IMG/VR virus record: IMGVR_UViG_3300042113_000560
Coordinates: 1-29,200 of that record
Source: a virus
Direction: 5' to 3' (one strand)
DNA length: 29,200 nucleotides
Below the pieces are notes generated by a model that did no database searches, was not told the origin of the DNA, and saw nothing but the letters and a program-made list of their open reading frames with translations. Position numbers and translations under genes: made by a program. The first letter of the stretch is position 1. Each line of letters starts with the position of its first letter. This document shows positions 850-16,710 of this stretch, one piece after another.

Positions 850-877
850 GGCATAGGTGGGGCCGGGCCCCAGTGAT

Positions 878-910
878 GTCAGGGGCTATTGCCGAGGCCG
901 CAGCCCTGAC
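878..910 (-). terminator. Stem-loop after the secreted-protein gene
   Basis: GTCAGGGGCT (878-887) pairs with AGCCCTGAC (902-910) with one bulged base and a 14-base loop, immediately after the leftward stop codon at 911. There is no T-run, so a terminator role is only suggested by position. Confidence 0.35.
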
Positions 911-1576
911 TCAAGGGGCACTGCAGAGAGGATCACTTCTCATTGCCGGGTTGGAGCAGGTCTCCGCCAACCGGATGCGTCTGCGGAGCTCGGCATCGTT
1001 CTTCTCCAGCACAGTGAAGTGTGAGATCGCTCTTGTCCTTCCGGGCTCACTGTGAACCCAGGTGGTGTAGTTGAAGCGTTGGCCGGCATAGAACACGCTG
1101 ACCTGACTCGATCCATTACCTGGCTCATTCACCGTTTTCATGACCTCTGAGCGCATGAAGTCCTCCAACACCTCGGCGCCTAAGACCTCGGCAATCAGAA
1201 GGTGCCCCAAGTCATTACCGTTTTTCTGAAAGATGACCTGACCAGAGCAGCGGTAGGGATCACGTTCACAAGCATCTGGTCTGTAGTCGATGGTTTCGCT
1301 TTCGGAGATGCGGTCGCTATTCAAGAATGCACTGAACGCGAGGCTCCCTCCTGCCGCAGAACCCTGGGAGCTGAGGTCTGGATAGCCATCGGTGTATTTC
1401 CGCTCTGCTTTTGGTCTGGGAAGAATGTGAGTGGCTGCACGCCAGTTCCGCAGTAGTTCACTGCTGCTTTCTCCCGGCAACGCCTGAACGGGCTGCCGGT
1501 CAACCAGTCCAAAGGTCAGGACAGCCGCCGCAACGGCCAGAGCTGAGCATGGCTTTCGCCTGGTTGCAACAGGCAT
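911..1576 (-). CDS. Secreted protein of unknown function (cargo gene)
   Basis: A 221-aa protein starting at ATG 1576. The frame is open further up to 1699, but that extension would run into the IS left end, while the 1576 start gives a proper signal peptide: MPVATRRKPC, a hydrophobic stretch around residues 11-24, and an Ala-rich cleavage site near VQALPG. The mature part carries several cysteines, including a C-terminal pair (ETCSNPAMRSDPLCSAP) that could form disulfides. I recognise no domain. It lies between the capsid gene and an IS5 element and reads in the same direction as the capsid gene. A secreted, cysteine-containing product is odd for a head-gene region and fits lysogenic-conversion cargo; a role in the host envelope is inference. 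Confidence 0.6.
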   Translation of the reverse strand: MPVATRRKPCSALAVAAAVLTFGLVDRQPVQALPGESSSELLRNWRAATHILPRPKAERKYTDGYPDLSSQGSAAGGSLAFSAFLNSDRISESETIDYRPDACERDPYRCSGQVIFQKNGNDLGHLLIAEVLGAEVLEDFMRSEVMKTVNEPGNGSSQVSVFYAGQRFNYTTWVHSEPGRTRAISHFTVLEKNDAELRRRIRLAETCSNPAMRSDPLCSAP

Positions 1577-1655
1577 CTTGCTTAGGGAATCTCTGGACAA
1601 ACGTGTTTGAGCGGCGGCAGTGAGCAGAAAAGGGAGCCTTTGGCCGTGAATTACC

Positions 1656-2810
1656 TCTAAGGCCGTTGTCTGAGCACCTCTGGTTTCCTGTTCAGCCACT
1701 TTGGGCTGGTTTTTGAGACTGAATCGAGCGTTCAGCCATGCTAACCCAGCCCCTGTTCAGGCTGTTGCGAGCAATTGCCGTCGGGCCTGGAACAGATTCG
1801 ATAGTGCTGCCATGACGTGGATCTTGCAGCGGTTCTTGGCCAGGCCGCGCAGCCGGGTCTTCTGGAAACCGAACTGCTGCTTGATCACGCGGAAGGGATG
1901 CTCGACCTTGGAGCGGATGTGGGCCTTGGCTGTCTCGATCAGATCCTGCAGCCTTCCATCTGGTGTATCCAGTAGAGCCCTGCGTTTGCCGGGTCGCATC
2001 GCCACCCTGAATTCCGTTGCCTTGCCTGCCATCTCAGGCCTTTTAGCGATGCCCTGGTAGCCGGCATCGGCGTAGACGACCTGCTCATCGCCGTGCAGGA
2101 GATCAGCAGCCGGGGTGAGGTCGTGAACATTGGCAGCCGTGACCACGACCGAATGAATCAGGCCGGAGTCCTTGTCCACACCGGCGTGGACTTTCATGCC
2201 GAAATACCACTGGTTGCCCTTCTTGGTCTGGTGCATTTCCGGATCCCGCTTCCCTTCCTTGTTCTTGGTGGAACTGGGCGCGGCGATCAAGGTGGCGTCC
2301 ACGATCGTGCCCTGGCGCATCGTCATGCCTTTCTCACTGAGATGGGCTTTGACGGTCTCAAAAACCTGCTCACCAAGGCCATGATTCTCAAGCAGATGGC
2401 GGAAGGTCAAGATCGTCGTTTCATCCGGAATCCGGTCGCTGATCAGCTCGATGCCGGCAAAGCGACGCATGGTGGGTACCTCGATCAGGGCCTCCTCCAT
2501 CGCCGGATCGCTCAGTGAATACCACTGCTGCAGCAAGTGAATGCGCAGCATCGTCGCCAGGGGGTAAGGAGGGCGACCGCCTTTCTTGTTCGCTTTGGGG
2601 TAGTGGGGCTCAATCAGATCGATCAGTGCCTGCCAGGGCACCACCGCCTCCATCTCAGAGAGAAACTTCTCCCGCTTGGTCTGCTTCTTGGCTGTGATCA
2701 GCTCGTAGTCCGAGAAGCCGAGCTGCTTGCCACCCATCAACCCTGTCCCGGCCTGCGATTACAGGCCCATTGTCGCGTGGATCGCCTGGGATTCCCAGAG
2801 TCTCCTTAGA
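1656..2810 (-). mobile_element. IS5-family insertion sequence (ends tentative)
   Basis: The element carries one transposase gene. Its ends are not securely defined. The best inverted match outside the gene is TCTAAGG at 1656-1662 with CCTTAGA at 2804-2810, which would give 1,155 bp, a normal size for IS5. A second candidate is GAGACT near 1716 with AGTCTC near 2799. I could not find a convincing target-site duplication next to either pair. Part of its right end and adjoining flank is repeated in inverted orientation at 8101-8258. Confidence 0.55.
1757..2737 (-). CDS. IS5-family DDE transposase
   Basis: A full-length 326-aa transposase that catalyses cut-and-paste movement of the IS. It follows E. 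coli IS5 InsH closely along its whole length: an N-terminal GFSDYELI segment, PWQALIDLIEPHYPKA, the RPPYPLATMLRIH block, then the catalytic core. The DDE residues are visible as D147 in GTIVDAT, D224 in YADAGYQG, and E279 in KVEHPFRVIK, together with the family signature SSTKNKEGKRDPEMHQTKKG. The ATG at 2737 is preferred over the TTG one codon upstream because it matches the family N-terminus. No frameshift or internal stop is seen, so it may be active. Its first codons are repeated in reverse at 8215-8258. Confidence 0.95.
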   Translation of the reverse strand: MGGKQLGFSDYELITAKKQTKREKFLSEMEAVVPWQALIDLIEPHYPKANKKGGRPPYPLATMLRIHLLQQWYSLSDPAMEEALIEVPTMRRFAGIELISDRIPDETTILTFRHLLENHGLGEQVFETVKAHLSEKGMTMRQGTIVDATLIAAPSSTKNKEGKRDPEMHQTKKGNQWYFGMKVHAGVDKDSGLIHSVVVTAANVHDLTPAADLLHGDEQVVYADAGYQGIAKRPEMAGKATEFRVAMRPGKRRALLDTPDGRLQDLIETAKAHIRSKVEHPFRVIKQQFGFQKTRLRGLAKNRCKIHVMAALSNLFQARRQLLATA

Positions 2811-2855
2811 AGCGCTATCATGACCGTAGAACTGCGGCACGGCAACAGCAGGAAG
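2698..2855 (+). repeat. Source copy of the inverted insert at 8101-8258
   Basis: These 158 bases (first 14 or so codons of the transposase, its upstream region, and about 45 bases of flank beyond the putative IS end) recur as an exact reverse complement at 8101-8258. Because flank sequence is included, the second copy looks templated from this locus and not produced by ordinary IS transposition. Confidence 0.9.
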
Positions 2856-2868
2856 TAGCCCTGCTGCC

Positions 2869-3615
2869 ATGGTCACCAGCCCTGTTGCCTCTAATGCGGC
2901 CACCCCCGCTTCCCAGGCAGCGTTCAGCGCTGAGCGCTGGCGCCAGTTCTGGAATCACTGGAAGGCTGAGCCCCAGCAGCTCGCTGGCATCGAAGAGTTG
3001 CGCCTGGCCGTCATGGCGGCCGATCCGGCGATCCTCACCGAGGTCGCCCCATGGCGGCAGACCTTTTCATCGCCTCCACCCGCGCCAGCCCACGGCAATC
3101 CGCTGCTGGTGGCCTGGGAAAACCAGAACGACAACGCCTCTGGCACCGGCTACCGGGAGTGCTTCTCCAGCAGCTGCGCCATGCTCGCCCGCTACTGGGG
3201 CAAGGTCTCAGGCGACGACAACTACAACGTCATCCGTGCCCGCTACGGCGACACCACCTCGGCAGAAGCACAGCTGGCGGCGTTGCGCTCCCTGGGGCTG
3301 ACCGCCAACTTCGCCACCAATGGCCAGCGCGCAACGCTGGAGGAGCAGATCCATCTGGGCCGGCCAGTTGCGGTGGGCTGGCTGCACCACGGCCCCGCCT
3401 CAGCCCCCAGCGGCGGTGGTCATTGGAGCGTGGTGATCGGTTTCACCGAGGCCGCCGCCATCCACAACGACCCCAATGGTGAGGCCGACCTGGTCCATGG
3501 CGGCTACACCGCCAACACCAATGGGGCAGGGCAGCACTACAGCTGGAAGAACTGGCTGCCGCGCTGGCAGGCCGATGGCCCTGGCACCGGCTGGCTGCTC
3601 ACCTGCCATCCCTGA
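2869..3615 (+). CDS. C39-like (papain-fold) cysteine peptidase, possible endolysin
   Basis: A 248-aa protein with a C-terminal domain resembling the Peptidase_C39_2 group. After a charged N-terminal region (1-80) comes the QNDN segment and the cysteine motif ECFSSSCAML (C98/C103, C103 the likely nucleophile), then GGGHWSVVIGF with H185, and HNDPNG with N200/D201 as the third catalytic position. Such peptidases cleave peptide bonds; next to a small membrane protein this suggests a lysis cassette where it would cut cell-wall peptides, but a processing or bacteriocin-type role is also possible. The ATG at 2869 follows closely on IS-flank sequence, so the native upstream region may have been altered. 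The downstream gene starts 17 bases after the stop. Codons from residue 144 onward are repeated in copy 2 as a headless fragment. Confidence 0.72.
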   Translation: MVTSPVASNAATPASQAAFSAERWRQFWNHWKAEPQQLAGIEELRLAVMAADPAILTEVAPWRQTFSSPPPAPAHGNPLLVAWENQNDNASGTGYRECFSSSCAMLARYWGKVSGDDNYNVIRARYGDTTSAEAQLAALRSLGLTANFATNGQRATLEEQIHLGRPVAVGWLHHGPASAPSGGGHWSVVIGFTEAAAIHNDPNGEADLVHGGYTANTNGAGQHYSWKNWLPRWQADGPGTGWLLTCHP

Positions 3616-3632
3616 CACCAAGGAGCACTGCC

Positions 3633-3890
3633 ATGGCCGGTGGTGAAGGGTTTGATCGCGAGCGGTTCCTGTTGCGCGCAGTGGCCGGGGTGTTCATCGC
3701 CCAATTCACGCTCTATGCCGCTGGCCTGGGCGGTTGCTTCTGGCTTGGTCTGCAGCGGCGGCTTGGCCCGGTGTGCAGCAGCTATGCCGAGAACCTGCAG
3801 CAGACGTTTGAGGCGGCGGTTGGCACCAGCCTGGCCTTGCTCGGTGGCGGCAGCATCGTCAGTGCCCGGCGCCGCGATCCAGACAACTGA
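3633..3890 (+). CDS. Small membrane protein, holin candidate (copy 1)
   Basis: An 85-aa protein with two hydrophobic stretches, roughly residues 16-40 (AVAGVFIAQFTLYAAG and on) and 61-77, separated by a short polar part, and a positively charged C-terminal tail (SARRRDPDN). It has one of the clearest Shine-Dalgarno sequences in the window, AAGGAG seven bases before the ATG. It follows the C39 peptidase by 17 bases on the same strand. Size, topology and neighbour fit a holin or holin-like partner of an endolysin, but no family signature is recognised, so the role is inferred from context. Confidence 0.6.
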   Translation: MAGGEGFDRERFLLRAVAGVFIAQFTLYAAGLGGCFWLGLQRRLGPVCSSYAENLQQTFEAAVGTSLALLGGGSIVSARRRDPDN

Positions 3891-3912
3891 ACCAGGCTGG
3901 CCGCAGCGCTGA

Positions 3913-3931
3913 GAACGGCCGCAGGCCGTTC
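3913..3931. terminator. Stem-loop between convergent genes (copy 1)
   Basis: GAACGGCC (3913-3920) and GGCCGTTC (3924-3931) form a perfect 8-bp stem with a GCA loop, between the ends of the rightward membrane gene and the leftward HD gene. No T-run follows in either direction, so termination would be weak or factor-dependent. Confidence 0.45.
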
Positions 3932-4604
3932 AAGGCTGGGGATGGGCCTCTGGCCGCTCCAGGTAGCTGGCGGCCCACACCGCCGGAGCGATGCCATGGG
4001 GCACCAGACGCCGGTAGGGCTCGCTGCTGAGCAGTTCCTGCACCGCTTCTGCCAGCAGGGCGGTGGAGCGACATTCCGGCAAGCGATGGCTCAGGGCCTG
4101 TTGCACGCGCAGTAGGTACCAGGCACTGCCCTCCAGCCCAGCCGTGAAACGCTCCCAGTCATTGGGGTTGCTGCGCGCATCGAGCACCAGGTCACGGGCG
4201 TTGTGGGCCTTGTCGGCTGCCGTCACCAGCAGAGAGGTCTGCGGCTTCTCCTCCAGTGAGGCGAGATAGCGGGTCTTGCGCAGCAGCCAAGGTTCCTTCT
4301 CGGCGCCGGGCTCCACGGGGCCAGCGGTGTCGGTGCAGTCCACCACGATCGCGGCGACCTCCTCGCCAAAGCGTGCGGTAATCGAGGCCTGGCTCTGGCC
4401 TGCATCCTCGATGGCGTCGTGCAGCAGACCCGCGATTGCCTGGTTTTCGCTGCCGCCGTCCTCCCACACCAGAGCACTCACGGCAATGAGGTGGGCGATG
4501 TAGGGAACCGGTTTGCCCTTGCGCCGCTGACCGCGGTGCAGCTCAGCCGCCCAGCCCAGGGCATCGGTGTAGCGCTGGCTGTGGGCGTTCTCAGGAGCCG
4601 TCAT
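3930..4604 (-). CDS. HD-domain hydrolase, SpoT/MESH1-like (copy 1)
   Basis: A 224-aa HD-superfamily protein resembling the (p)ppGpp-hydrolase domain of RelA/SpoT and small MESH1-type enzymes. The metal-binding pattern is visible: H23 in LHRGQRRKGKPVPYIAHL with H38, the H62-D63 pair in LLHDAIED with E66/D67 close by, and D131 in AADKAHNARD. FGEEVAAIVVDCTD and the KEPWLLRKTRYL segment also match that group. It should hydrolyse a nucleotide phosphate bond; the alarmone is the obvious substrate, but other nucleotides cannot be excluded. The start is ATG 4604, with a GTG two codons upstream as alternative. It is transcribed leftward, convergent with the holin candidate. In a phage it could remove starvation signals during infection (inference). 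Confidence 0.75.
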   Translation of the reverse strand: MTAPENAHSQRYTDALGWAAELHRGQRRKGKPVPYIAHLIAVSALVWEDGGSENQAIAGLLHDAIEDAGQSQASITARFGEEVAAIVVDCTDTAGPVEPGAEKEPWLLRKTRYLASLEEKPQTSLLVTAADKAHNARDLVLDARSNPNDWERFTAGLEGSAWYLLRVQQALSHRLPECRSTALLAEAVQELLSSEPYRRLVPHGIAPAVWAASYLERPEAHPQP

Positions 4605-4611
4605 CGCCACG

Positions 4612-4820
4612 TTCTACAGCCGGTGTTGCGGCTGCTGTCTCAACCTGGCCTCGGCAGCCATCCGGCCATGGGGTCGGCGAGGAATCACCAGCACTGCCCC
4701 GGAGCGCAGGGCTGCGCCCTGCTCGCCCCGCCCTGGCAAGGGCTGACGCGAGCCGCTGCGCGGCCCTTGCCAGGGCGTGTCGTCCGGGGCGATGGGACAG
4801 GTGTTCCTCGCCTCCGTCCC
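4612..4820 (+). promoter_or_regulatory. Structured leader with three hairpins (copy 1)
   Basis: The gap between the divergent HD and 71-aa genes holds three consecutive perfect inverted repeats: 4706-4722 (7-bp stem, 3-base loop), 4730-4776 (GCCCTGGCAAGGGC with its exact complement, 14-bp stem, 19-base loop) and 4792-4822 (ATGGGAC/GTCCCAT, 17-base loop). The last stem includes the first bases of the start codon of the 71-aa gene. A cis-acting leader or small RNA is inferred from structure only. Confidence 0.5.
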
Positions 4821-5036
4821 ATGGCCTCCTCTGCTCCTCTGGCCTGTCCGATCCGTCAGCTGGTGCTGCACAGCTACCCGGCTGGGCTCAAGGTCGCCGC
4901 TGCCGAGCGCGTCACGGTCTTCTATGGCCGCCGCGGCAAGCCCGTGAAGAAGCCGCGCTTCCTGCCAGCTGAGCTGGCCCATCAGCTGGCCCGCAAGCTG
5001 GCAGCCAAGCGCCTCGGCACCGTCTCGGTGCTCTGA
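4821..5036 (+). CDS. Small basic protein of unknown function (copy 1)
   Basis: A 71-aa protein starting at the ATG at 4821, at the end of a hairpin-rich leader. It has a short possible beta segment (IRQLVLHSYPAG, AERVTVFYGRRG) followed by a lysine/arginine-rich helix (HQLARKLAAKRLG). I recognise no family. The start choice is supported by the leader in front and by a good stem-loop terminator 15 bases after the stop, making it a stand-alone rightward transcription unit among leftward genes. The high basic content would suit nucleic-acid binding, but that is a guess. Confidence 0.5.
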   Translation: MASSAPLACPIRQLVLHSYPAGLKVAAAERVTVFYGRRGKPVKKPRFLPAELAHQLARKLAAKRLGTVSVL

Positions 5037-5050
5037 GGCGGCGGCCTTGT

Positions 5051-5072
5051 GGCCCGGCGTTGCCGGGCCTTT
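5051..5072 (+). terminator. Rho-independent-type terminator (copy 1)
   Basis: GGCCCGGC (5051-5058), loop GTT, GCCGGGCC (5062-5069), then TTT and a further T-rich stretch. It closes the rightward 71-aa gene. Confidence 0.65.
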
Positions 5073-5111
5073 CTGCCCTTTTCCAGCTCGTTGCCAAATC
5101 GGTGGCTGATT

Positions 5112-5396
5112 TCAAAGCCAGGGCCGGTAGCGGCTCCGTTGCCTGCGCGCTGCCGCACGAGCGGGAGCTGTGCCGAACTGGGGGCTGCTGCCATCACGGC
5201 GGCGCCGCACCCAAACGCCCTGTCGGATCAGGCGACGGTCGGCCTCATTGGCCTGCTGGATCGCCACCAAGCTGCCGTAGCCGGCTTTCTGCCTGGCCTG
5301 AGCACGATCCCTGGCCTGGCTGCGATTCAGCGCCGGTACCACGGTGGCAGTGGAGCGGCGGCTCCAGAAGGCCAGGTAGTAGTGCCAGCGCGTCAT
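5112..5396 (-). CDS. Small arginine-rich protein after the scaffold gene (copy 1)
   Basis: A 94-aa ORF that starts five bases after the stop of the scaffold-like gene on the same strand, the tight spacing expected in a phage head operon. It begins MTRWHYYLAFWSRR and is strongly basic, with RRRRDG near residue 60 and RQRSRYRPWL at the end. No family is recognised. Long ORFs arise easily at this G+C content, so its reality rests mainly on position and a plausible ATG. Confidence 0.45.
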   Translation of the reverse strand: MTRWHYYLAFWSRRSTATVVPALNRSQARDRAQARQKAGYGSLVAIQQANEADRRLIRQGVWVRRRRDGSSPQFGTAPARAAARRQRSRYRPWL

Positions 5397-5401
5397 GACG
5401 C

Positions 5402-6277
5402 TCAGCTGCGCGGGCTGCGGCCGTTGAGGGCAAAGCCGGCCCGGTAGAGCTCGCTGGCGCTCATCGCCTGCGGATTGATCACCTCCCCAAAACCGCTGGC
5501 ACCGAGGGTGCCGGCTGCAGTGCCCGCGGGCAAAGCGCCCGTGCCCATGGCGCCGCGCTGCTGGAACAGGAAGCCATACACGGGATGGATGCGCAGCTGA
5601 TCGAGGTAGTCGGCCGTGGTCATCGGCCGGCCGTCATCACCCAGCAGGGGCTGGCCCTGAGCGTCCAACGGTTCGAGAGCATCGCTGCCGTCCTTGCTGC
5701 TGCCAAGCCGGAAGCAGTCCCAGAGCATCGAGCGGAACACCTGAAAGAAGGTGCCGCGCCCATCGCCGCCGGTGCGCCCTTCCGCTTCTGAGAAGGCACG
5801 CTCCAGCAGCCGCTCTTTGCGCAGCTCTTGCACCCGCTCATGGGCGGCGTCGCGTTCAGCTGATACGGCGGCCACGCGTTTGGCGGCGGCCTCCTCCATC
5901 TGGCGCTCACGCAGCTCCAGCTGCTGCTCGAGGTGCTGCTTCTGGCGTTCGGCCTCCTGCAGGCGGGCGTACTCCTCGGGGTTGATCTCCGAGAAGCGGG
6001 TCAGCTGCTGCCGCAGCCCGCGCAGTTCCTTTTCGAGGTTGTTGCTGCGGCGGCGCTCGGCCTTGAGGGCTTCGCTGAGGCCAGCCCCACTGGAGCCATC
6101 GCCGCCGGATCCCTGGGTGGATTCATTGGCAGTGGTTGCAGCATCCGACCCAGTGCTGTGCTCGGCCTGAGTGCTGTCCTGCTCGCTGGCCTCCGGTTCA
6201 CGGAGGTCCAGCAAGTCGTTGCCATCACCCGCGTTTCGGGTCGTGCTCGTGTTGGGGGTTGCGGAAGCAGTGGCCAT
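5402..6277 (-). CDS. Head scaffold-like coiled-coil protein (copy 1)
   Basis: A 291-aa protein built like phage scaffolding proteins: a low-complexity acidic/Ser-Thr-rich N-terminus (1-65), a long charged coiled coil from about 68 to 162 (heptads rich in Glu, Arg, Leu, Gln), and a C-terminal part (170-291) ending in SASELYRAGFALNGRSPRS that could contact the coat protein. Scaffolds direct assembly of the capsid shell inside the procapsid and are then lost. It sits downstream of the portal and two head genes on the same strand, which is the standard place. Unusually, the capsid gene is not next but about 4.5 kb further left. A minor structural protein with a coiled coil is the alternative. Confidence 0.65.
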   Translation of the reverse strand: MATASATPNTSTTRNAGDGNDLLDLREPEASEQDSTQAEHSTGSDAATTANESTQGSGGDGSSGAGLSEALKAERRRSNNLEKELRGLRQQLTRFSEINPEEYARLQEAERQKQHLEQQLELRERQMEEAAAKRVAAVSAERDAAHERVQELRKERLLERAFSEAEGRTGGDGRGTFFQVFRSMLWDCFRLGSSKDGSDALEPLDAQGQPLLGDDGRPMTTADYLDQLRIHPVYGFLFQQRGAMGTGALPAGTAAGTLGASGFGEVINPQAMSASELYRAGFALNGRSPRS

Positions 6278-6362
6278 GACCCGTCTCGGCTGTCAGTGGG
6301 ATCGGCAGCCCATCGCGGCGCTGCCATCCCCTGTTGCCGAGATCAAGCGAGGCGGGAGTCAG

Positions 6363-6380
6363 CATGCGTTGCTACGCATG
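6363..6380. promoter_or_regulatory. Palindrome upstream of the secreted cargo gene (copy 1)
   Basis: CATGCGT-TGCT-ACGCATG is a perfect 7-bp inverted repeat in the 227-bp gap between the divergent scaffold and cargo genes; it could be an operator. A weak promoter-like pair (TTGCGC at 6450-6455, TATGAC at 6474-6479, 18-base spacer) lies downstream of it. Confidence 0.35.
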
Positions 6381-6504
6381 AATTCGGAGCACGAAGCTGC
6401 GCGTCTTACAAGGGGAACCTGCTAGATACGACAAGTAGAGAGGAAGGTATTGCGCAATCCTGCTTGCATCGGCTATGACTATGAATAAGCACTTTATGTA
6501 AGGC

Positions 6505-7191
6505 GTGAGACTGCCATTTCTAGCGATATTTCTTCTATTTGCCGCGCCGTTCCTGCCACACGCGGTCCACGCTGATCTAGACGGGGCTGACATAACAGGC
6601 CCCAATGGTCAAACAACGACCGGGCAAGCGTACGAAGCGCGCTGTGGCATCAAAAAAGAGAAGTGCACTGTCAGCTTCAAGGATGAGAAGTTGATCATCA
6701 ATGAAGGCGCGGGTATTTACCGCGATCAATTTGTTTCGGTGGTCCTCACAAGAGAGTGCACCCAAAGAGCCTTGTTAATGCCTTGGGTCACCAGTTGCTT
6801 TCAGAATCAGCTGGACTGGGATTTTACGATTACATACAGAGCGTCTGATGGCAGTCAAAGAGCGGCCCTGATTTCATTCATGCCCCGCTATTTCAATACA
6901 AATCCAACAGATATAGCCAGAGCCTTCGAGCGAGACCTCCAGATCTGGTCCGAGAATGTCCTTCGGCCAATAGGTCCATCCATCCAAATCGAGGCCCCAG
7001 GCAAGCCAGAAGCAAGGCCAAGCAGGAGGCCTTCTGCTGCTGCGCCAATCGTGTCATGCAAGCCTCCCTTAACCGATTACGATTGCAGCTGGAGCAAATA
7101 TCTTGTCGCGAATCCTTCTGTCTCTAACTGGGCCAAAGCAAACCCTCAGATGGCAGAGAAAGAGCGACTGAGATTGGGAGGGCTTGAATAG
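6505..7191 (+). CDS. Secreted protein of unknown function, low-G+C cargo gene (copy 1)
   Basis: A 228-aa protein with a clear signal peptide: MRLPFLAIFLLFAAPFLPHA followed by a VHA-D cleavage site near residue 23. The GTG at 6505 is the only reasonable start because an in-frame TAA lies at 6499. The mature protein has cysteines (EARCGIKKEKCTVSF, TRECTQ, TSCFQNQ, VSCKPPLTDYDCSW) and a proline/arginine-rich linker before the C-terminal part, suggesting an extracytoplasmic, disulfide-bonded protein. It reads against the surrounding head genes and has lower G+C (30 of 60 bases at 6841-6900, against 42 of 60 at 18001-18060), both signs of an acquired moron. No domain is recognised. Confidence 0.75.
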   Translation: MRLPFLAIFLLFAAPFLPHAVHADLDGADITGPNGQTTTGQAYEARCGIKKEKCTVSFKDEKLIINEGAGIYRDQFVSVVLTRECTQRALLMPWVTSCFQNQLDWDFTITYRASDGSQRAALISFMPRYFNTNPTDIARAFERDLQIWSENVLRPIGPSIQIEAPGKPEARPSRRPSAAAPIVSCKPPLTDYDCSWSKYLVANPSVSNWAKANPQMAEKERLRLGGLE

Positions 7192-7230
7192 CTCTTGCTT
7201 CTTGCGCGAAAATCAACCCTTAAAACACTC

Positions 7231-7824
7231 TCACAAAAGCCGATTCGGCTTGAGCGTCCCGAACACCCGCTCACCAATCAGCGGCTGCACCAGGGAGCCG
7301 ATGCCGCCGGAGCCGTAATCGGCGCCGAATTCCAGCACCACAAAGGCGGTGTGCTGGGCGTAGGGATCTACATCAGCAGCGCCCTCAGCGTTGAGCAGGC
7401 TGAGATCCCCCAGCCAGATCAGTCCCTCGCAGGGAGCCACAACGGTGCTGCTGAGCGCACCTCCCGGTGCGACGCTGCCACCGCTGGCAACGCGGCGGCC
7501 GTTCTGCTGCCAGCTCAAGGCGCTGCTCAGCCAGATGGCGCCCGGGTGAGGCGGCAGGCGGGTAGCCCGGCAGACCATGCCGCTGTAGGTGAAGTCGCCG
7601 GTGTCGACCCCAGGGCCGTTCTCCTTGGCGGAGATGTAGTTGGCGCGCACCAGAAAGCACTCGAGCACATGCGCCGCCACCACAGCAGAGGTGGTGTCAC
7701 CGGGGATGGCGTTCTCCGCCAGCAGCAGGCGTGCATTGGCAAACGGCTGCAATGGAGTTGCGGGCCAGGGCCCGGCCGCCTGTGGATGTTGGCCGCTGGT
7801 GAAACGCCTGGGGCTGGTGGTCAT
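7231..7824 (-). CDS. Head-associated structural protein candidate (copy 1)
   Basis: A 197-aa protein without an N-terminal signal. It has a proline-rich start (MTTSPRRFTSGQHPQAAGPW) and then alternating hydrophobic and glycine-rich segments likely to be beta-rich (VVAAHVLECFLVRANY, GDFTYSGMVCRATRLP, TVVAPCEGLIWLGDLSLL, HTAFVVLEFGADYG). It lies between the 175-aa gene downstream of the portal and the scaffold-like gene, three bases after the former, so it belongs to the head operon; a decoration, head-completion or minor capsid role is inferred from position. No family is recognised. The C-terminal codons form a small hairpin (AAGCCGAATCGGCTT on the minus strand) that might help end the transcript. 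Confidence 0.6.
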   Translation of the reverse strand: MTTSPRRFTSGQHPQAAGPWPATPLQPFANARLLLAENAIPGDTTSAVVAAHVLECFLVRANYISAKENGPGVDTGDFTYSGMVCRATRLPPHPGAIWLSSALSWQQNGRRVASGGSVAPGGALSSTVVAPCEGLIWLGDLSLLNAEGAADVDPYAQHTAFVVLEFGADYGSGGIGSLVQPLIGERVFGTLKPNRLL

Positions 7825-7827
7825 CGC

Positions 7828-8104
7828 TCAACCCCGCAGCATCGGCGTTGTTCCCAGCTGCCCTGTGGCCTGGGCGGTGAACTGCACCCAGCTGCTGAGC
7901 CCAGGCAGCAGCAACAGCAGCTGGTCGGCGTAGCGGCGCCGCTGACGCAGCAGTCCCATCGCGGGCGAACTGGGGTTGGCGTAGGTGGTTTCGCTCTCCT
8001 CGCGCAGGAGCGCCGTGTCGTAGGCGATCACATCTGCTTTCTGCAGGGGTGCATCACCAGCAGCGGCGACCGAGCCGGCGATCGGCCCCGAGTGGCTGCG
8101 CTTC
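7828..8104 (-). pseudogene. Truncated copy of the 175-aa head gene
   Basis: This is the 3' part of the gene found intact at 12789-13316. The first 84 codons or so are missing because copy 1 of the duplication ends at 8104 and runs into the inverted IS-derived piece. The reading frame stays open a little into that piece, so a chimeric product could be made, but the native start is lost. Confidence 0.85.
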
Positions 8105-8258
8105 CTGCTGTTGCCGTGCCGCAGTTCTACGGTCATGATAGCGCTTCTAAGGAGACTCTGGGAATCCCAGGCGATCCACGCGACAATGGGCCTGTAATCG
8201 CAGGCCGGGACAGGGTTGATGGGTGGCAAGCAGCTCGGCTTCTCGGACTACGAGCTGA
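8101..8258 (-). repeat. Inverted transposase-end fragment between the two duplicates
   Basis: An exact reverse complement of 2698-2855. It carries the first codons of the IS5 transposase (now reading right, from the ATG at 8218) and the region upstream of it. The four bases CTTC at 8101-8104 belong to both copy 1 and this fragment, a 4-bp microhomology at the junction. At the other end ...GAGCTGA meets CTGACCGCC with no shared base but an adjacent CTGA repeat. Confidence 0.92.
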
Positions 8259-8576
8259 CTGACCGCCAACTTCGCCACCAATGGCCAGCGCGCAACGCTG
8301 GAGGAGCAGATCCATCTGGGCCGGCCAGTTGCGGTGGGCTGGCTGCACCACGGCCCCGCCTCAGCCCCCAGCGGCGGTGGTCATTGGAGCGTGGTGATCG
8401 GTTTCACCGAGGCCGCCGCCATCCACAACGACCCCAATGGTGAGGCCGACCTGGTCCATGGCGGCTACACCGCCAACACCAATGGGGCAGGGCAGCACTA
8501 CAGCTGGAAGAACTGGCTGCCGCGCTGGCAGGCCGATGGCCCTGGCACCGGCTGGCTGCTCACCTGCCATCCCTGA
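8259..8576 (+). pseudogene. C39 peptidase fragment lacking the catalytic cysteine
   Basis: Codons 144-248 of the peptidase at 2869-3615. The histidine (GGGHWSVV) and HNDPNG motifs remain but the cysteine motif is gone, so it cannot be an active peptidase. A GTG at 8334 could still start an 80-aa C-terminal piece. Confidence 0.88.
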
Positions 8577-8593
8577 CACCAAGGAGCACTGCC

Positions 8594-8851
8594 ATGGCCG
8601 GTGGTGAAGGGTTTGATCGCGAGCGGTTCCTGTTGCGCGCAGTGGCCGGGGTGTTCATCGCCCAATTCACGCTCTATGCCGCTGGCCTGGGCGGTTGCTT
8701 CTGGCTTGGTCTGCAGCGGCGGCTTGGCCCGGTGTGCAGCAGCTATGCCGAGAACCTGCAGCAGACGTTTGAGGCGGCGGTTGGCACCAGCCTGGCCTTG
8801 CTCGGTGGCGGCAGCATCGTCAGTGCCCGGCGCCGCGATCCAGACAACTGA
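8594..8851 (+). CDS. Small membrane protein, holin candidate (copy 2)
   Basis: Identical in sequence to the gene at 3633, including its AAGGAG ribosome binding site. Here it lacks an intact peptidase partner upstream. Transcription could come instead from the transposase promoter carried, pointing right, in the inverted fragment at 8101-8258. If both copies are expressed, holin dosage and therefore lysis timing would change (inference). Confidence 0.58.
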   Translation: MAGGEGFDRERFLLRAVAGVFIAQFTLYAAGLGGCFWLGLQRRLGPVCSSYAENLQQTFEAAVGTSLALLGGGSIVSARRRDPDN

Positions 8852-8873
8852 ACCAGGCTGGCCGCAGCGCTGA

Positions 8874-8892
8874 GAACGGCCGCAGGCCGTTC
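8874..8892. terminator. Stem-loop between convergent genes (copy 2)
   Basis: Same 8-bp GAACGGCC/GGCCGTTC hairpin with GCA loop as at 3913-3931. Confidence 0.45.
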
Positions 8893-9565
8893 AAGGCTGG
8901 GGATGGGCCTCTGGCCGCTCCAGGTAGCTGGCGGCCCACACCGCCGGAGCGATGCCATGGGGCACCAGACGCCGGTAGGGCTCGCTGCTGAGCAGTTCCT
9001 GCACCGCTTCTGCCAGCAGGGCGGTGGAGCGACATTCCGGCAAGCGATGGCTCAGGGCCTGTTGCACGCGCAGTAGGTACCAGGCACTGCCCTCCAGCCC
9101 AGCCGTGAAACGCTCCCAGTCATTGGGGTTGCTGCGCGCATCGAGCACCAGGTCACGGGCGTTGTGGGCCTTGTCGGCTGCCGTCACCAGCAGAGAGGTC
9201 TGCGGCTTCTCCTCCAGTGAGGCGAGATAGCGGGTCTTGCGCAGCAGCCAAGGTTCCTTCTCGGCGCCGGGCTCCACGGGGCCAGCGGTGTCGGTGCAGT
9301 CCACCACGATCGCGGCGACCTCCTCGCCAAAGCGTGCGGTAATCGAGGCCTGGCTCTGGCCTGCATCCTCGATGGCGTCGTGCAGCAGACCCGCGATTGC
9401 CTGGTTTTCGCTGCCGCCGTCCTCCCACACCAGAGCACTCACGGCAATGAGGTGGGCGATGTAGGGAACCGGTTTGCCCTTGCGCCGCTGACCGCGGTGC
9501 AGCTCAGCCGCCCAGCCCAGGGCATCGGTGTAGCGCTGGCTGTGGGCGTTCTCAGGAGCCGTCAT
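8891..9565 (-). CDS. HD-domain hydrolase, SpoT/MESH1-like (copy 2)
   Basis: Second, identical 224-aa gene. All metal-binding residues noted for the copy at 3930-4604 are present (H23, H38, H62-D63, D131), so both copies should be functional. The neighbourhood is also the same on both sides: convergent with the membrane gene on the left and divergent from the hairpin leader on the right. The GTG at 9571 is an alternative start. Confidence 0.75.
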   Translation of the reverse strand: MTAPENAHSQRYTDALGWAAELHRGQRRKGKPVPYIAHLIAVSALVWEDGGSENQAIAGLLHDAIEDAGQSQASITARFGEEVAAIVVDCTDTAGPVEPGAEKEPWLLRKTRYLASLEEKPQTSLLVTAADKAHNARDLVLDARSNPNDWERFTAGLEGSAWYLLRVQQALSHRLPECRSTALLAEAVQELLSSEPYRRLVPHGIAPAVWAASYLERPEAHPQP

Positions 9566-9572
9566 CGCCACG

Positions 9573-9781
9573 TTCTACAGCCGGTGTTGCGGCTGCTGTC
9601 TCAACCTGGCCTCGGCAGCCATCCGGCCATGGGGTCGGCGAGGAATCACCAGCACTGCCCCGGAGCGCAGGGCTGCGCCCTGCTCGCCCCGCCCTGGCAA
9701 GGGCTGACGCGAGCCGCTGCGCGGCCCTTGCCAGGGCGTGTCGTCCGGGGCGATGGGACAGGTGTTCCTCGCCTCCGTCCC
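9573..9781 (+). promoter_or_regulatory. Structured leader with three hairpins (copy 2)
   Basis: Stems at 9667-9683, 9691-9704 with 9724-9737, and 9753-9759 with 9777-9783. The last covers the ATG of the 71-aa gene, so opening of this stem could control its translation. Confidence 0.5.
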
Positions 9782-9997
9782 ATGGCCTCCTCTGCTCCTC
9801 TGGCCTGTCCGATCCGTCAGCTGGTGCTGCACAGCTACCCGGCTGGGCTCAAGGTCGCCGCTGCCGAGCGCGTCACGGTCTTCTATGGCCGCCGCGGCAA
9901 GCCCGTGAAGAAGCCGCGCTTCCTGCCAGCTGAGCTGGCCCATCAGCTGGCCCGCAAGCTGGCAGCCAAGCGCCTCGGCACCGTCTCGGTGCTCTGA
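9782..9997 (+). CDS. Small basic protein of unknown function (copy 2)
   Basis: Identical to the 71-aa gene at 4821-5036, with the same leader and terminator, so the whole transcription unit is duplicated. The C-terminal helix carries most of the positive charge. Function unknown. Confidence 0.5.
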   Translation: MASSAPLACPIRQLVLHSYPAGLKVAAAERVTVFYGRRGKPVKKPRFLPAELAHQLARKLAAKRLGTVSVL

Positions 9998-10011
9998 GGC
10001 GGCGGCCTTGT

Positions 10012-10033
10012 GGCCCGGCGTTGCCGGGCCTTT
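10012..10033 (+). terminator. Rho-independent-type terminator (copy 2)
   Basis: GGCCCGGC-GTT-GCCGGGCC followed by TTT, 14 bases after the stop of the 71-aa gene. Confidence 0.65.
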
Positions 10034-10072
10034 CTGCCCTTTTCCAGCTCGTTGCCAAATCGGTGGCTGATT

Positions 10073-10357
10073 TCAAAGCCAGGGCCGGTAGCGGCTCCGT
10101 TGCCTGCGCGCTGCCGCACGAGCGGGAGCTGTGCCGAACTGGGGGCTGCTGCCATCACGGCGGCGCCGCACCCAAACGCCCTGTCGGATCAGGCGACGGT
10201 CGGCCTCATTGGCCTGCTGGATCGCCACCAAGCTGCCGTAGCCGGCTTTCTGCCTGGCCTGAGCACGATCCCTGGCCTGGCTGCGATTCAGCGCCGGTAC
10301 CACGGTGGCAGTGGAGCGGCGGCTCCAGAAGGCCAGGTAGTAGTGCCAGCGCGTCAT
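10073..10357 (-). CDS. Small arginine-rich protein after the scaffold gene (copy 2)
   Basis: Same 94-aa ORF as at 5112-5396. In this copy it belongs to the uninterrupted operon portal, 175-aa, 197-aa, scaffold-like, 94-aa, and so is the one most likely to be expressed with the head genes. Confidence 0.45.
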   Translation of the reverse strand: MTRWHYYLAFWSRRSTATVVPALNRSQARDRAQARQKAGYGSLVAIQQANEADRRLIRQGVWVRRRRDGSSPQFGTAPARAAARRQRSRYRPWL

Positions 10358-10362
10358 GACGC

Positions 10363-11238
10363 TCAGCTGCGCGGGCTGCGGCCGTTGAGGGCAAAGCCGG
10401 CCCGGTAGAGCTCGCTGGCGCTCATCGCCTGCGGATTGATCACCTCCCCAAAACCGCTGGCACCGAGGGTGCCGGCTGCAGTGCCCGCGGGCAAAGCGCC
10501 CGTGCCCATGGCGCCGCGCTGCTGGAACAGGAAGCCATACACGGGATGGATGCGCAGCTGATCGAGGTAGTCGGCCGTGGTCATCGGCCGGCCGTCATCA
10601 CCCAGCAGGGGCTGGCCCTGAGCGTCCAACGGTTCGAGAGCATCGCTGCCGTCCTTGCTGCTGCCAAGCCGGAAGCAGTCCCAGAGCATCGAGCGGAACA
10701 CCTGAAAGAAGGTGCCGCGCCCATCGCCGCCGGTGCGCCCTTCCGCTTCTGAGAAGGCACGCTCCAGCAGCCGCTCTTTGCGCAGCTCTTGCACCCGCTC
10801 ATGGGCGGCGTCGCGTTCAGCTGATACGGCGGCCACGCGTTTGGCGGCGGCCTCCTCCATCTGGCGCTCACGCAGCTCCAGCTGCTGCTCGAGGTGCTGC
10901 TTCTGGCGTTCGGCCTCCTGCAGGCGGGCGTACTCCTCGGGGTTGATCTCCGAGAAGCGGGTCAGCTGCTGCCGCAGCCCGCGCAGTTCCTTTTCGAGGT
11001 TGTTGCTGCGGCGGCGCTCGGCCTTGAGGGCTTCGCTGAGGCCAGCCCCACTGGAGCCATCGCCGCCGGATCCCTGGGTGGATTCATTGGCAGTGGTTGC
11101 AGCATCCGACCCAGTGCTGTGCTCGGCCTGAGTGCTGTCCTGCTCGCTGGCCTCCGGTTCACGGAGGTCCAGCAAGTCGTTGCCATCACCCGCGTTTCGG
11201 GTCGTGCTCGTGTTGGGGGTTGCGGAAGCAGTGGCCAT
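10363..11238 (-). CDS. Head scaffold-like coiled-coil protein (copy 2)
   Basis: Identical to the protein at 5402-6277. This copy is in line with an intact portal and 175-aa head gene upstream on the same strand, though the rightward cargo gene at 11466-12152 lies between, so it may need its own promoter in the 11239-11465 gap. Confidence 0.65.
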   Translation of the reverse strand: MATASATPNTSTTRNAGDGNDLLDLREPEASEQDSTQAEHSTGSDAATTANESTQGSGGDGSSGAGLSEALKAERRRSNNLEKELRGLRQQLTRFSEINPEEYARLQEAERQKQHLEQQLELRERQMEEAAAKRVAAVSAERDAAHERVQELRKERLLERAFSEAEGRTGGDGRGTFFQVFRSMLWDCFRLGSSKDGSDALEPLDAQGQPLLGDDGRPMTTADYLDQLRIHPVYGFLFQQRGAMGTGALPAGTAAGTLGASGFGEVINPQAMSASELYRAGFALNGRSPRS

Positions 11239-11323
11239 GACCCGTCTCGGCTGTCAGTGGGATCGGCAGCCCATCGCGGCGCTGCCATCCCCTGTTGCCG
11301 AGATCAAGCGAGGCGGGAGTCAG

Positions 11324-11341
11324 CATGCGTTGCTACGCATG
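11324..11341. promoter_or_regulatory. Palindrome upstream of the secreted cargo gene (copy 2)
   Basis: Second copy of the CATGCGT-TGCT-ACGCATG inverted repeat seen at 6363-6380. Confidence 0.35.
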
Positions 11342-11465
11342 AATTCGGAGCACGAAGCTGCGCGTCTTACAAGGGGAACCTGCTAGATACGACAAGTAGA
11401 GAGGAAGGTATTGCGCAATCCTGCTTGCATCGGCTATGACTATGAATAAGCACTTTATGTAAGGC

Positions 11466-12152
11466 GTGAGACTGCCATTTCTAGCGATATTTCTTCTATT
11501 TGCCGCGCCGTTCCTGCCACACGCGGTCCACGCTGATCTAGACGGGGCTGACATAACAGGCCCCAATGGTCAAACAACGACCGGGCAAGCGTACGAAGCG
11601 CGCTGTGGCATCAAAAAAGAGAAGTGCACTGTCAGCTTCAAGGATGAGAAGTTGATCATCAATGAAGGCGCGGGTATTTACCGCGATCAATTTGTTTCGG
11701 TGGTCCTCACAAGAGAGTGCACCCAAAGAGCCTTGTTAATGCCTTGGGTCACCAGTTGCTTTCAGAATCAGCTGGACTGGGATTTTACGATTACATACAG
11801 AGCGTCTGATGGCAGTCAAAGAGCGGCCCTGATTTCATTCATGCCCCGCTATTTCAATACAAATCCAACAGATATAGCCAGAGCCTTCGAGCGAGACCTC
11901 CAGATCTGGTCCGAGAATGTCCTTCGGCCAATAGGTCCATCCATCCAAATCGAGGCCCCAGGCAAGCCAGAAGCAAGGCCAAGCAGGAGGCCTTCTGCTG
12001 CTGCGCCAATCGTGTCATGCAAGCCTCCCTTAACCGATTACGATTGCAGCTGGAGCAAATATCTTGTCGCGAATCCTTCTGTCTCTAACTGGGCCAAAGC
12101 AAACCCTCAGATGGCAGAGAAAGAGCGACTGAGATTGGGAGGGCTTGAATAG
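11466..12152 (+). CDS. Secreted protein of unknown function, low-G+C cargo gene (copy 2)
   Basis: Identical to the gene at 6505-7191, with the same GTG start, signal peptide and cysteine pattern. It is inserted between the 197-aa head gene and the scaffold-like gene, on the opposite strand, so it splits what would otherwise be a continuous head operon. Two copies could double the amount of secreted product in a lysogen. Confidence 0.75.
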   Translation: MRLPFLAIFLLFAAPFLPHAVHADLDGADITGPNGQTTTGQAYEARCGIKKEKCTVSFKDEKLIINEGAGIYRDQFVSVVLTRECTQRALLMPWVTSCFQNQLDWDFTITYRASDGSQRAALISFMPRYFNTNPTDIARAFERDLQIWSENVLRPIGPSIQIEAPGKPEARPSRRPSAAAPIVSCKPPLTDYDCSWSKYLVANPSVSNWAKANPQMAEKERLRLGGLE

Positions 12153-12191
12153 CTCTTGCTTCTTGCGCGAAAATCAACCCTTAAAACACTC

Positions 12192-12785
12192 TCACAAAAG
12201 CCGATTCGGCTTGAGCGTCCCGAACACCCGCTCACCAATCAGCGGCTGCACCAGGGAGCCGATGCCGCCGGAGCCGTAATCGGCGCCGAATTCCAGCACC
12301 ACAAAGGCGGTGTGCTGGGCGTAGGGATCTACATCAGCAGCGCCCTCAGCGTTGAGCAGGCTGAGATCCCCCAGCCAGATCAGTCCCTCGCAGGGAGCCA
12401 CAACGGTGCTGCTGAGCGCACCTCCCGGTGCGACGCTGCCACCGCTGGCAACGCGGCGGCCGTTCTGCTGCCAGCTCAAGGCGCTGCTCAGCCAGATGGC
12501 GCCCGGGTGAGGCGGCAGGCGGGTAGCCCGGCAGACCATGCCGCTGTAGGTGAAGTCGCCGGTGTCGACCCCAGGGCCGTTCTCCTTGGCGGAGATGTAG
12601 TTGGCGCGCACCAGAAAGCACTCGAGCACATGCGCCGCCACCACAGCAGAGGTGGTGTCACCGGGGATGGCGTTCTCCGCCAGCAGCAGGCGTGCATTGG
12701 CAAACGGCTGCAATGGAGTTGCGGGCCAGGGCCCGGCCGCCTGTGGATGTTGGCCGCTGGTGAAACGCCTGGGGCTGGTGGTCAT
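12192..12785 (-). CDS. Head-associated structural protein candidate (copy 2)
   Basis: Identical to the 197-aa gene at 7231-7824. Here the upstream 175-aa gene is intact and ends three bases before this ATG, and portal precedes it, which confirms membership of the head operon. Confidence 0.62.
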   Translation of the reverse strand: MTTSPRRFTSGQHPQAAGPWPATPLQPFANARLLLAENAIPGDTTSAVVAAHVLECFLVRANYISAKENGPGVDTGDFTYSGMVCRATRLPPHPGAIWLSSALSWQQNGRRVASGGSVAPGGALSSTVVAPCEGLIWLGDLSLLNAEGAADVDPYAQHTAFVVLEFGADYGSGGIGSLVQPLIGERVFGTLKPNRLL

Positions 12786-12788
12786 CGC

Positions 12789-13316
12789 TCAACCCCGCAG
12801 CATCGGCGTTGTTCCCAGCTGCCCTGTGGCCTGGGCGGTGAACTGCACCCAGCTGCTGAGCCCAGGCAGCAGCAACAGCAGCTGGTCGGCGTAGCGGCGC
12901 CGCTGACGCAGCAGTCCCATCGCGGGCGAACTGGGGTTGGCGTAGGTGGTTTCGCTCTCCTCGCGCAGGAGCGCCGTGTCGTAGGCGATCACATCTGCTT
13001 TCTGCAGGGGTGCATCACCAGCAGCGGCGACCGAGCCGGCGATCGGCCCCGAGTGGCTGCGCTTCTGGATCGCCTGCTCCTGCTCACAGCCACCGGCTAG
13101 CAGCTGCTGATCGATCAGGGCCACCGCATCCAGTAGGGCGCGGGCGCTCAATACCCCGGCCGGGTGTTGGCGCAGTAGATCCGCCATCGCCCGCCCGATG
13201 GCATCCAGACAGGGAACGGTGGCGGGCAGCGCCAGACACTGGCGGATGGCCTCCTGGTCTTGCGGTTGCCACGTCGCACCACCTGGCGCGCTGGGCATGT
13301 TGCTGCTGATGGTCAT
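12789..13316 (-). CDS. Head protein downstream of portal, function unknown
   Basis: The only intact copy of this 175-aa gene. The ATG at 13316 overlaps the portal stop as ATGA, which fixes the start (an upstream extension of 13 codons is open but lies inside portal). The N-terminal half is helical and rich in Ala/Leu/Gln (QEAIRQCLALPATVPCLDAI, LLRQHPAGVLSARALLDAV), the C-terminal half contains a charged helix (GLLRQRRRYADQLLLLLPGL). No family recognised; position suggests a connector or minor head protein. The duplication junction at 13065 lies about codon 84. Confidence 0.65.
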   Translation of the reverse strand: MTISSNMPSAPGGATWQPQDQEAIRQCLALPATVPCLDAIGRAMADLLRQHPAGVLSARALLDAVALIDQQLLAGGCEQEQAIQKRSHSGPIAGSVAAAGDAPLQKADVIAYDTALLREESETTYANPSSPAMGLLRQRRRYADQLLLLLPGLSSWVQFTAQATGQLGTTPMLRG

Positions 13317-14743
13317 GCAGAAGCCGGTGCCACACCGGCTAGATCCCCCAGCCATTGCCGCAGGGCCTGCTCGCTCACGATGCCGCGCTCATGCAGCTGC
13401 AGCATTTCAGCAACGGTCGGTTGAGGCTTGGGCGCTGGGGCCAGCGGGCTGATCTCCACGAGCAGGGCCGGACCCTGCTGCAAGGGAACTGGTTCTCCGG
13501 TGATTGCGCACCAGTGCTGCAGCAGAGAGGAGAACATCGAGGCCTTCTGGATCGCCTGGCTCTGCAGCAGTGCATAGGCCTGCGAGGCCGCCAGGGAAAT
13601 TTCGGTGGCGGTGCGCGGTGCCCCCTGGGCGCCGGATGGGATCAGGGCGTCACGGCGCATGCCCTGGTCGAGGGATTCCAGCCAGGCGCGGTGCTCGGCC
13701 AAGGAGCGGGCCTGGATCTCCACGAACTGGAAGCTGGCCCCATCGGGCAGATCGATCACGGTGTTGGGGCCAAGCACCACCGGCTCGCTGGTGCCACTGC
13801 CCATGGGGCCGACGACCCCTGTGCGCACACCCACCGGCAGCGCTGTTCGGTAGAGCAGCTCCTGGTAGTCGCTCTGGCAGCGGAAGTGGTTGAGGTACTG
13901 GTGCGCCAGGCCTAGATGCGGCAGATCCCCCTCGCCAAAAGCGGCGCCGTCACTCGCGTACCAGATCAAGGGGAGCTGGCGAATGCCGCGGTAGTGCTGC
14001 AACCCTGTGCGTTGCGGTCGCCAGCCGGATGGACCCTTCGGGTCTGCCACCAGCTCGATGGTCTCGACGCTCATGCCCTCGCCATCGAGGGCAACGGATC
14101 CGTAGAGCCATGGATGCTGAGGTCGATCCGGGTCCAGGGGCTCGTCCTGGGCCTTGGGGTTGGGCAGCCGGAAGCTGACCGCGTCAGGCAAGGACTGGGG
14201 GCCAGGCAGGTGCCAGTTCAGGACGTCGCGGCGCTCCAGCAGAGCAAGGCGCGGCAGCGAGAGACGATCACCACGGCGCAGCGCCTGCTGGCGGTCGCCT
14301 TCGCTGGGCCAGAGGTGCTGCGGTGGCAGCACGCCAATCAGTGCTGCACCATCGCGAAGCACCAGCACGTCGGCACGCTCAAGGAACACGCCCAGGTCAG
14401 TGCCGCGTCCATCCACATCACTGATCACCGCCTGCAGCGAAGCCGGAAGCTCACGCCAGTGGCTGGAGGCCAGCATCCCCGCGAAGGTGCGCAGGGCATC
14501 GCGGAAGAAGCCGGAGGGCAGGGCTGCCTCCAGCCGGCGGCGGTAGGCGCTCTCGGGTTCGCGCTCACCGCGGGGCAGGTAGTGCTCTTTGCGGCCAGCG
14601 AGCAGGTCCCAGCAGTCCCAGATCAGCTCAAGGCGGGGGAGCAGTGCGGCCAGGGTGGGGTGAAGCGGCCAAGGGAGAGAGGCTGATGCTGTTGTTGGTC
14701 GCAAGAGGATCGGCGGCGCTGCCTGCTTTTGCCGGCATGGCAA
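13313..14743 (-). CDS. Portal protein, DUF4055 family
   Basis: A protein of about 476 aa that should form the dodecameric DNA-entry ring at the capsid vertex and dock the terminase. The N-terminal region HPTLAALLPRLELIWDCWDLLAGRKEHYLP, the following Y-RRL-A pattern and a downstream MLASSHW segment resemble DUF4055 portals; the C-terminal part has ARSLAEHRAWLESLDQGMRR, TATEISLAASQAYALLQSQA and a final VAEMLQLHERGIVSEQALRQWL helix typical of portals. The start is uncertain: TTG at 14743 is the longest, other weak starts lie just inside. The gene's 5' end abuts the low-G+C HEPN/SEFIR insert, so the original start region may have been changed. Terminase genes upstream support the call. Confidence 0.8.
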   Translation of the reverse strand: MPCRQKQAAPPILLRPTTASASLPWPLHPTLAALLPRLELIWDCWDLLAGRKEHYLPRGEREPESAYRRRLEAALPSGFFRDALRTFAGMLASSHWRELPASLQAVISDVDGRGTDLGVFLERADVLVLRDGAALIGVLPPQHLWPSEGDRQQALRRGDRLSLPRLALLERRDVLNWHLPGPQSLPDAVSFRLPNPKAQDEPLDPDRPQHPWLYGSVALDGEGMSVETIELVADPKGPSGWRPQRTGLQHYRGIRQLPLIWYASDGAAFGEGDLPHLGLAHQYLNHFRCQSDYQELLYRTALPVGVRTGVVGPMGSGTSEPVVLGPNTVIDLPDGASFQFVEIQARSLAEHRAWLESLDQGMRRDALIPSGAQGAPRTATEISLAASQAYALLQSQAIQKASMFSSLLQHWCAITGEPVPLQQGPALLVEISPLAPAPKPQPTVAEMLQLHERGIVSEQALRQWLGDLAGVAPASA

Positions 14744-14949
14744 TCAACAGCTGGCAGGGGTGGTTCTCAGATCCGTTGATGACTCCTACGGTTTGCGCAG
14801 AGTTCCCGAGGAAGCACAGGCATCAGAGCCATGCAAGGCCCAAGGGGCACCGAACAAAGACTGGTCATCCGGTAGAGCCGAGTCTGTCTGGCAGGTTGAT
14901 CGGAAACCATTTAGGGTCAAGCGAGCCTCGTATTGACATCGAGACCGGC

Positions 14950-15540
14950 ATGCCACGCAAGAAGAGCGTCAAGCTTTCCGCAACTAACTTCTGCAACGAA
15001 GTTGACAGCATCAACCAGTTTTTAGCCACCGTTTCCTTGGGGCAATCGGACGAGCACATTTCTTGGCTGCACAATTACGCGATCATTAGGTTATACAAAG
15101 AGTTTGAGGCATTGATGCTGGACGCGTTGGTGGGCGCAGTAAATAACGACACTTCAACAATTGCAGCAACCACTGATGTTCAGTTTCCCAAGCACCTGAC
15201 GGATGAGGTCTGCGAGTTTCTGATTACTGGCACGGGCTACTTCGATTTCAAAGGGCGGTCCGGCTTAATCAAGACACTCAAGTCATTTGTGCCGAGCACT
15301 CACTATCTTTTAGCCTCGATCAAGAAGCCGGAATACAAAGACGCCTTGGAGAGGCTGACTGCGCTCCGAAACTTTGCCGCACATGAGAGTAGCTCCTCAA
15401 AAAGAGCGGCGCTGGAAGCGATCGGCGGTGAAAGAACTTCCTCAAGCGGGTCTTGGCTCAAAAGGAAGGGCCGCTTCCGTCAAATATCTTCGCAGTTAAA
15501 GGCGCTCGCCACGGAGATCTACAGCGCAGCACCGTACTAA
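14950..15540 (+). CDS. HEPN-domain protein, candidate RNase toxin of a defence pair
   Basis: A 196-aa mostly helical protein. The key feature is ALRNFAAHE at residues 138-146, the R-x4-H active-site motif (R140, H145) of HEPN RNases in its usual place at the start of the last long helix; it most resembles HEPN families with an RN..aH sequence such as RiboL-PSP-HEPN. The N-terminal helices (HNYAIIRLYKEFEALMLDAL) also fit. HEPN proteins cut RNA in abortive-infection and toxin systems. ATG 14950 begins the low-G+C coding sequence (25 of 60 bases are G/C at 15061-15120); the longer frame upstream reads through portal-region DNA and is not credible. It is followed 98 bases later by a SEFIR/TIR gene on the same strand. 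Confidence 0.68.
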   Translation: MPRKKSVKLSATNFCNEVDSINQFLATVSLGQSDEHISWLHNYAIIRLYKEFEALMLDALVGAVNNDTSTIAATTDVQFPKHLTDEVCEFLITGTGYFDFKGRSGLIKTLKSFVPSTHYLLASIKKPEYKDALERLTALRNFAAHESSSSKRAALEAIGGERTSSSGSWLKRKGRFRQISSQLKALATEIYSAAPY

Positions 15541-15638
15541 AGTCAACTACTCGAGAAGCCGCCCTGATGAATTGATTGGAAATTGATGTGGAAGCTTAGA
15601 TCAGGCGTTAGCCTTCATCAAGAAAGCAAGTGTAGTCC

Positions 15639-16606: not shown

Positions 16607-16710
16607 TTAGCCACCCCCCTCGAGTAAACAGGCCGCCACAGTCCTCTGCTTATCAACCCCAGGCTCCATATCTGCCACGCAGGGGCCGGGTAAGCCATCG
16701 ATTTATCTCA

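Follow-up and report, generated by a model that had tools for sequence, protein, structure and literature searches.

An exact direct duplication with a locally derived inverted insert in a prophage-like virus record

The virus record IMGVR_UViG_3300042113_000560 contains, within the 29,200-nucleotide stretch analyzed here (positions 1 to 29,200 of the record; hereafter, the window), a segment that is present twice in direct orientation, and the two copies are separated by a short spacer that is an exact reverse complement of a sequence located to the left of the first copy. The same segment occurs only once in related prophages. With a probability of about one half, this arrangement represents a tandem duplication of recent, non-homologous origin in a cyanobacterial prophage, generated by two successive inverted template switches of the FoSTeS/MMBIR type; taking all routes together, it probably arose in vivo.

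Arrangement of the duplicated segment and its gene context

The record shows a prophage-like gene order, in which a replication gene is also present. Close relatives of its insertion sequence (IS) and prophage segments were found in Cyanobium, Vulcanococcus, and Synechococcus genomes, and therefore the host most likely belongs to the Cyanobium/Synechococcus-type cyanobacterial group, as judged from these similarities. A megablast search against phage records gave no matches. The features are as follows.

1–849: major head protein, truncated by the left edge
1582–1585: left target-site duplication TTAG, from the sequence
1586–2805, minus strand: IS5-family insertion sequence, 1220 bp; transposase ORF at 1757–2740 with DUF772 and DDE_Tnp_1 (Pfam); ends placed by comparison
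2698–2855, plus strand: template piece A, composed of 108 bp of the IS right end, TTAG, and 46 bp of prophage flank; exact match
2806–2809: right target-site duplication TTAG, from the sequence
3298–8104, plus strand: first copy (copy 1) of B, the segment present twice, containing the scaffold gene; exact repeat
5402–6277, and again at 10363–11238: scaffold gene (phrog_206)
8101–8104: junction 1 (J1), CTTC, 4-bp microhomology where the two sources overlap
8101–8258, minus strand: A′, the inverted copy of 2698–2855 between both copies of B; exact match
8255–8262: junction 2 (J2), a blunt join with CTGACTGA
8259–13065, plus strand: second copy (copy 2) of B, with no difference from copy 1; exact repeat, ORFs, and Pfam
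13313–14743: portal
17259–18881: terminase
27983–29200: integrase, at the right edge

An exact comparison of the window with itself showed that the two copies of B match over 4807 bp with 0 mismatches at an offset of 4961, and that the spacer matches the reverse complement of A at 158 of 158 positions, an agreement that, for a sequence of this length, is judged to be far beyond chance. No further direct or inverted repeats of at least 20 bp were found within the window besides the B pair and the A/A′ pair. The first-pass annotation had described such a spacer, with flank extending past the IS end, and had placed its template about 440 bases to the left of copy 1; both points are borne out, since 2810–2855 lies outside the IS and its TTAG, and the distance from the end of the template piece (2855) to the start of copy 1 (3298) is 442 bp. 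The insert itself had been placed at 8098–8265, which starts 3 bases early and ends 7 bases late. The joined unit of B and A′ is 4961 bp long and includes the scaffold gene. Each copy of B truncates one gene that is intact at the other: at copy 1, a gene encoding a C39-peptidase-like protein (2869–3615) is whole, whereas the right end of the copy interrupts a 188-aa gene, whose start is missing; at copy 2, the 188-aa gene (12789–13355) is whole, and the left end of the copy interrupts the C39-peptidase-like gene, which lacks its start. The 29 kb are free of N's and show no second anomaly.

Several other genes in the window were also recorded. The protein encoded at 15752–16606 (plus strand) matches PADLOC bSEFIR (4e-40) and Pfam TIR_2 (5e-10), and its gene adjoins an unnamed 298-aa ORF (14644–15540); it is situated in a stretch of approximately 1.9 kb (about 14842–16720) in the portal–terminase interval that is unmatched in close relatives, and is likely to be prophage-borne defense cargo. 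Beside the scaffold gene, a cargo region of approximately 0.9 kb (6341–7238, with a copy at 11302–12199) carries a 228-aa ORF (6505–7191) of no known family; this region is missing in L004, L005, and L007, three of the related prophage loci compared here, and approximately 0.5 kb is present instead in L003 and L008. The duplicated segment also encodes an HD_4-domain protein (3930–4610, minus strand, with a copy at 8891–9571; 5e-19), possibly a prophage-encoded nucleotide hydrolase as predicted from this domain.

Junctions and the source of the insert

The sequence at J1 reads ...GTGGCTGCG[CTTC]CTGCTGTTG, and at J2 it reads ...GAGCTGA|CTGACCGCC, where the overlap is 0 bp and CTGA both ends one source and begins the other (CTGA.CTGA). 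The 4-bp CTTC microhomology at J1 and the CTGA repeat adjoining a J2 devoid of microhomology had both been noted in the first-pass annotation and are seen as described. When random inverted junctions were drawn from the window sequence minus one B and A′, 2.4% of them had an overlap of at least 4, and 0.6% showed a tandem repeat of 4 nt where the sources meet; the J1 overlap and the J2 repeat are thus each suggestive and neither is strong, and the microhomology evidence from these sequences is weak. Folding was unremarkable at three of the four breakpoints, none of which has a strong hairpin, and the fourth, at 3298, falls in the lowest 4%, which is not significant over four sites. As exact strings, J1 and J2 are absent from the other IMG/VR contigs searched. 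Matches to the IS element in related genomes extend approximately 11 bases beyond J2, and a variant IS copy that would give J2 longer homology was therefore considered; no variant with CTGACTGACCGCC was found there, only GAGCTGACCACGGCCAA-like sequence, so this likeness is attributed to chance.

The ends of the IS were placed by comparison with cyanobacterial copies, in which homology ends at 1581–1583 and 2808–2811, and its terminal sequences are GGAATCTCTGG and GGAGACTCTGG. The element at 1586–2805 has the DUF772 DDE transposase, the 4-bp target duplication, and the similar inverted ends of the IS5 family, the ends being alike over the first ~11 bases only; a stricter inverted-repeat scan of the IS ends found none. 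A single IS copy is present in the window. Within the flank at 2810–2855, the portion that begins at about 2838 is prophage sequence also recognizable in L007. The insert includes all 46 bp of this prophage flank, and its template was therefore the locus to the left of copy 1 and not another IS copy. The concern, raised in the first-pass annotation, that the 158-bp piece might be a common repeat applies to one part of it: on its own, the IS end is dispersed as a repeat across many cyanobacterial genomes, but the IS part joined to this flank was not found in what was searched.

Organization in related prophages

Segment B is single in nine related prophages (L003–L008 and, more distantly, L009–L011), in which copies 1 and 2 match the same coordinates of each, and the IS is missing from the matching region. 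Gap-free alignments were obtained around the J1 site (13040–13085) in L003–L011, L122, and L123 and around the J2 site (3280–3320) in L003–L008, L010, and L011. Since the relatives are single-copy and align through both breakpoint sites, the ancestral order is left flank, B, and right flank. Cargo inserts aside, the remainder of the window and relatives such as L006 are colinear, and no other rearrangement is visible.

A scan of 127 loci (129 fetched minus two that are pieces of the window) for near-perfect direct repeats of at least 300 bp identified mostly neighboring IS copies and one 4.3-kb repeat. The latter, in Synechococcus sp. GFB01 Contig39 (L057), consists of 415–4733 and 6653–10975 with 99.7% identity, located 1.9 kb apart around a related IS copy. 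In Xanthomonas hortorum jj2001, a related IS5-type element is arranged in head-to-tail tandem with a 7–8-base overlap (L103, 2751–5085; L108, 4931–7264).

Origin and meaning of the duplication

The anatomy is consistent with two inverted template switches, which would produce precisely this order in the smallest number of steps. Synthesis would reach 8104, where CTTC would let the 3′ end pair with the other strand at 2855; 158 bp would then be copied backwards from 2855 to 2698, and after a switch back at 3298, B would be copied a second time and synthesis would continue into the original flank. Switches made in the opposite order on the other strand would be equally possible, and their order cannot be told from the product, which reads alike on both strands. 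Two perfect 4.8-kb direct repeats are expected to be lost readily by recombination, and hence the duplication is either recent or not real. More than one novel junction and the insertion of nearby sequence at a duplication junction, features expected of template switching of the FoSTeS/MMBIR type, are both present. Partially inverted amplification at lac in E. coli, in which an inverted and a direct duplication are accompanied by two new junctions, is documented and is interpreted by its authors as the product of paired inverted template switches (PMC3161906), and the present arrangement is similar in its two novel junctions, its inverted and direct duplication of nearby DNA, and its short junction homology; however, the inverted parts in E. 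coli span kilobases, show 3–30 bp of microhomology, and were confirmed by array and PCR, whereas a 158-bp part with 4 and 0 bp is seen here in the sequence of one record. The junction homologies of 4 bp at J1 and 0 bp at J2 also count against template switching when compared with the cut-offs of 8–12 bp used for verified spontaneous rearrangements in Salmonella (PMC3411829), as does the unremarkable folding at three of the four breakpoints. The template switching proposed in the first-pass annotation is thus supported as regards the local template, and two switches agree with the anatomy, but a single-event mechanism does not follow, since a chimera or the trimmed triplication discussed below would give the same sequence.

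An artefact is unlikely but carries appreciable weight: a chimera formed in MDA or library making, or a loop B–A′–B resolved by the assembler, would mean that no single DNA molecule ever had the order given in the record. Two 4.8-kb repeats at 100% identity, which short reads cannot span, are typical assembler output on loop resolution, and the repeats in this record match that pattern; a single contig can show perfect repeats of this size when long reads were used, when coverage allowed a genuine duplication to be solved, or when the assembler retained a chimeric edge. Assemblers normally prune such edges if their coverage is low, which argues against an artefact, as do the unbroken sequence and the lack of another anomaly across 29 kb, while the absence of the junction strings from the other IMG/VR contigs searched speaks for one. 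Among MDA chimeras, 85% are inverted, mostly with parts <10 kb apart and with short complementarity (PMC1855051), and the joins here resemble them in these respects; MDA chimeras, however, arise in vitro, and 93.5% of the inverted ones <10 kb have at least 2 bp of pairing, so that the 0-bp overlap at J2 is mildly against MDA; one product would also have to contain two switches separated by 158 bp.

An asymmetric tandem inversion duplication, in which a direct–inverted–direct triplication forms at quasi-palindromes and two later deletions leave 158 bp of the inverted middle copy, is rather improbable. It predicts the direct–inverted–direct order with two asymmetric junctions that is observed, and embedded inverted duplications are, according to the work of Kugelberg et al. 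as cited in PMC3161906, common in lac amplification in E. coli and Salmonella. In contrast to that Salmonella system as outlined there, the inverted copy is tiny and its source, 2698–2855, lies outside the directly repeated segment 3298–8104; embedded inverted copies in lac amplification measure 5.2–42.6 kb with junctions of 3–30 bp (PMC3161906), as against 158 bp and one junction with no overlap, and the two additional deletions and the scarcity of strong hairpins at the breakpoints also weigh against it. An event driven by the IS, in which the IS5-type transposase cut or nicked its right end and repair captured the element end, is very improbable. The inserted piece does span this end, but the breakpoints (2698 and 2855) lie 108 bp inside and 46–50 bp outside it, neither junction is at an IS end or between IS copies as in IS-mediated duplication, both TTAG repeats are retained, and the CTGA at J2 differs from the TTAG/CTAA target. 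It is therefore unlikely that transposition made the breakpoints, and the transposase-induced breaks considered in the first-pass annotation find no support. It is hardly to be expected that the unit of B and A′ stands for a tandem of more than two copies, as a collapsed longer array or a free prophage-derived circle.

Long perfect repeats in virus contigs call for caution, as they need read support before use. The duplication with its short inverted insert is an ordinary member of a rearrangement class already known from bacteria (PMC3161906); no model would change even if it is real, and greater interest would attach only to a larger array. If real, it would provide a clean natural case of a duplication whose inverted insert was templated locally, in a prophage of a cyanobacterium; most studies of this signature have dealt with human copy-number variants and with E. 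coli kept under selection.
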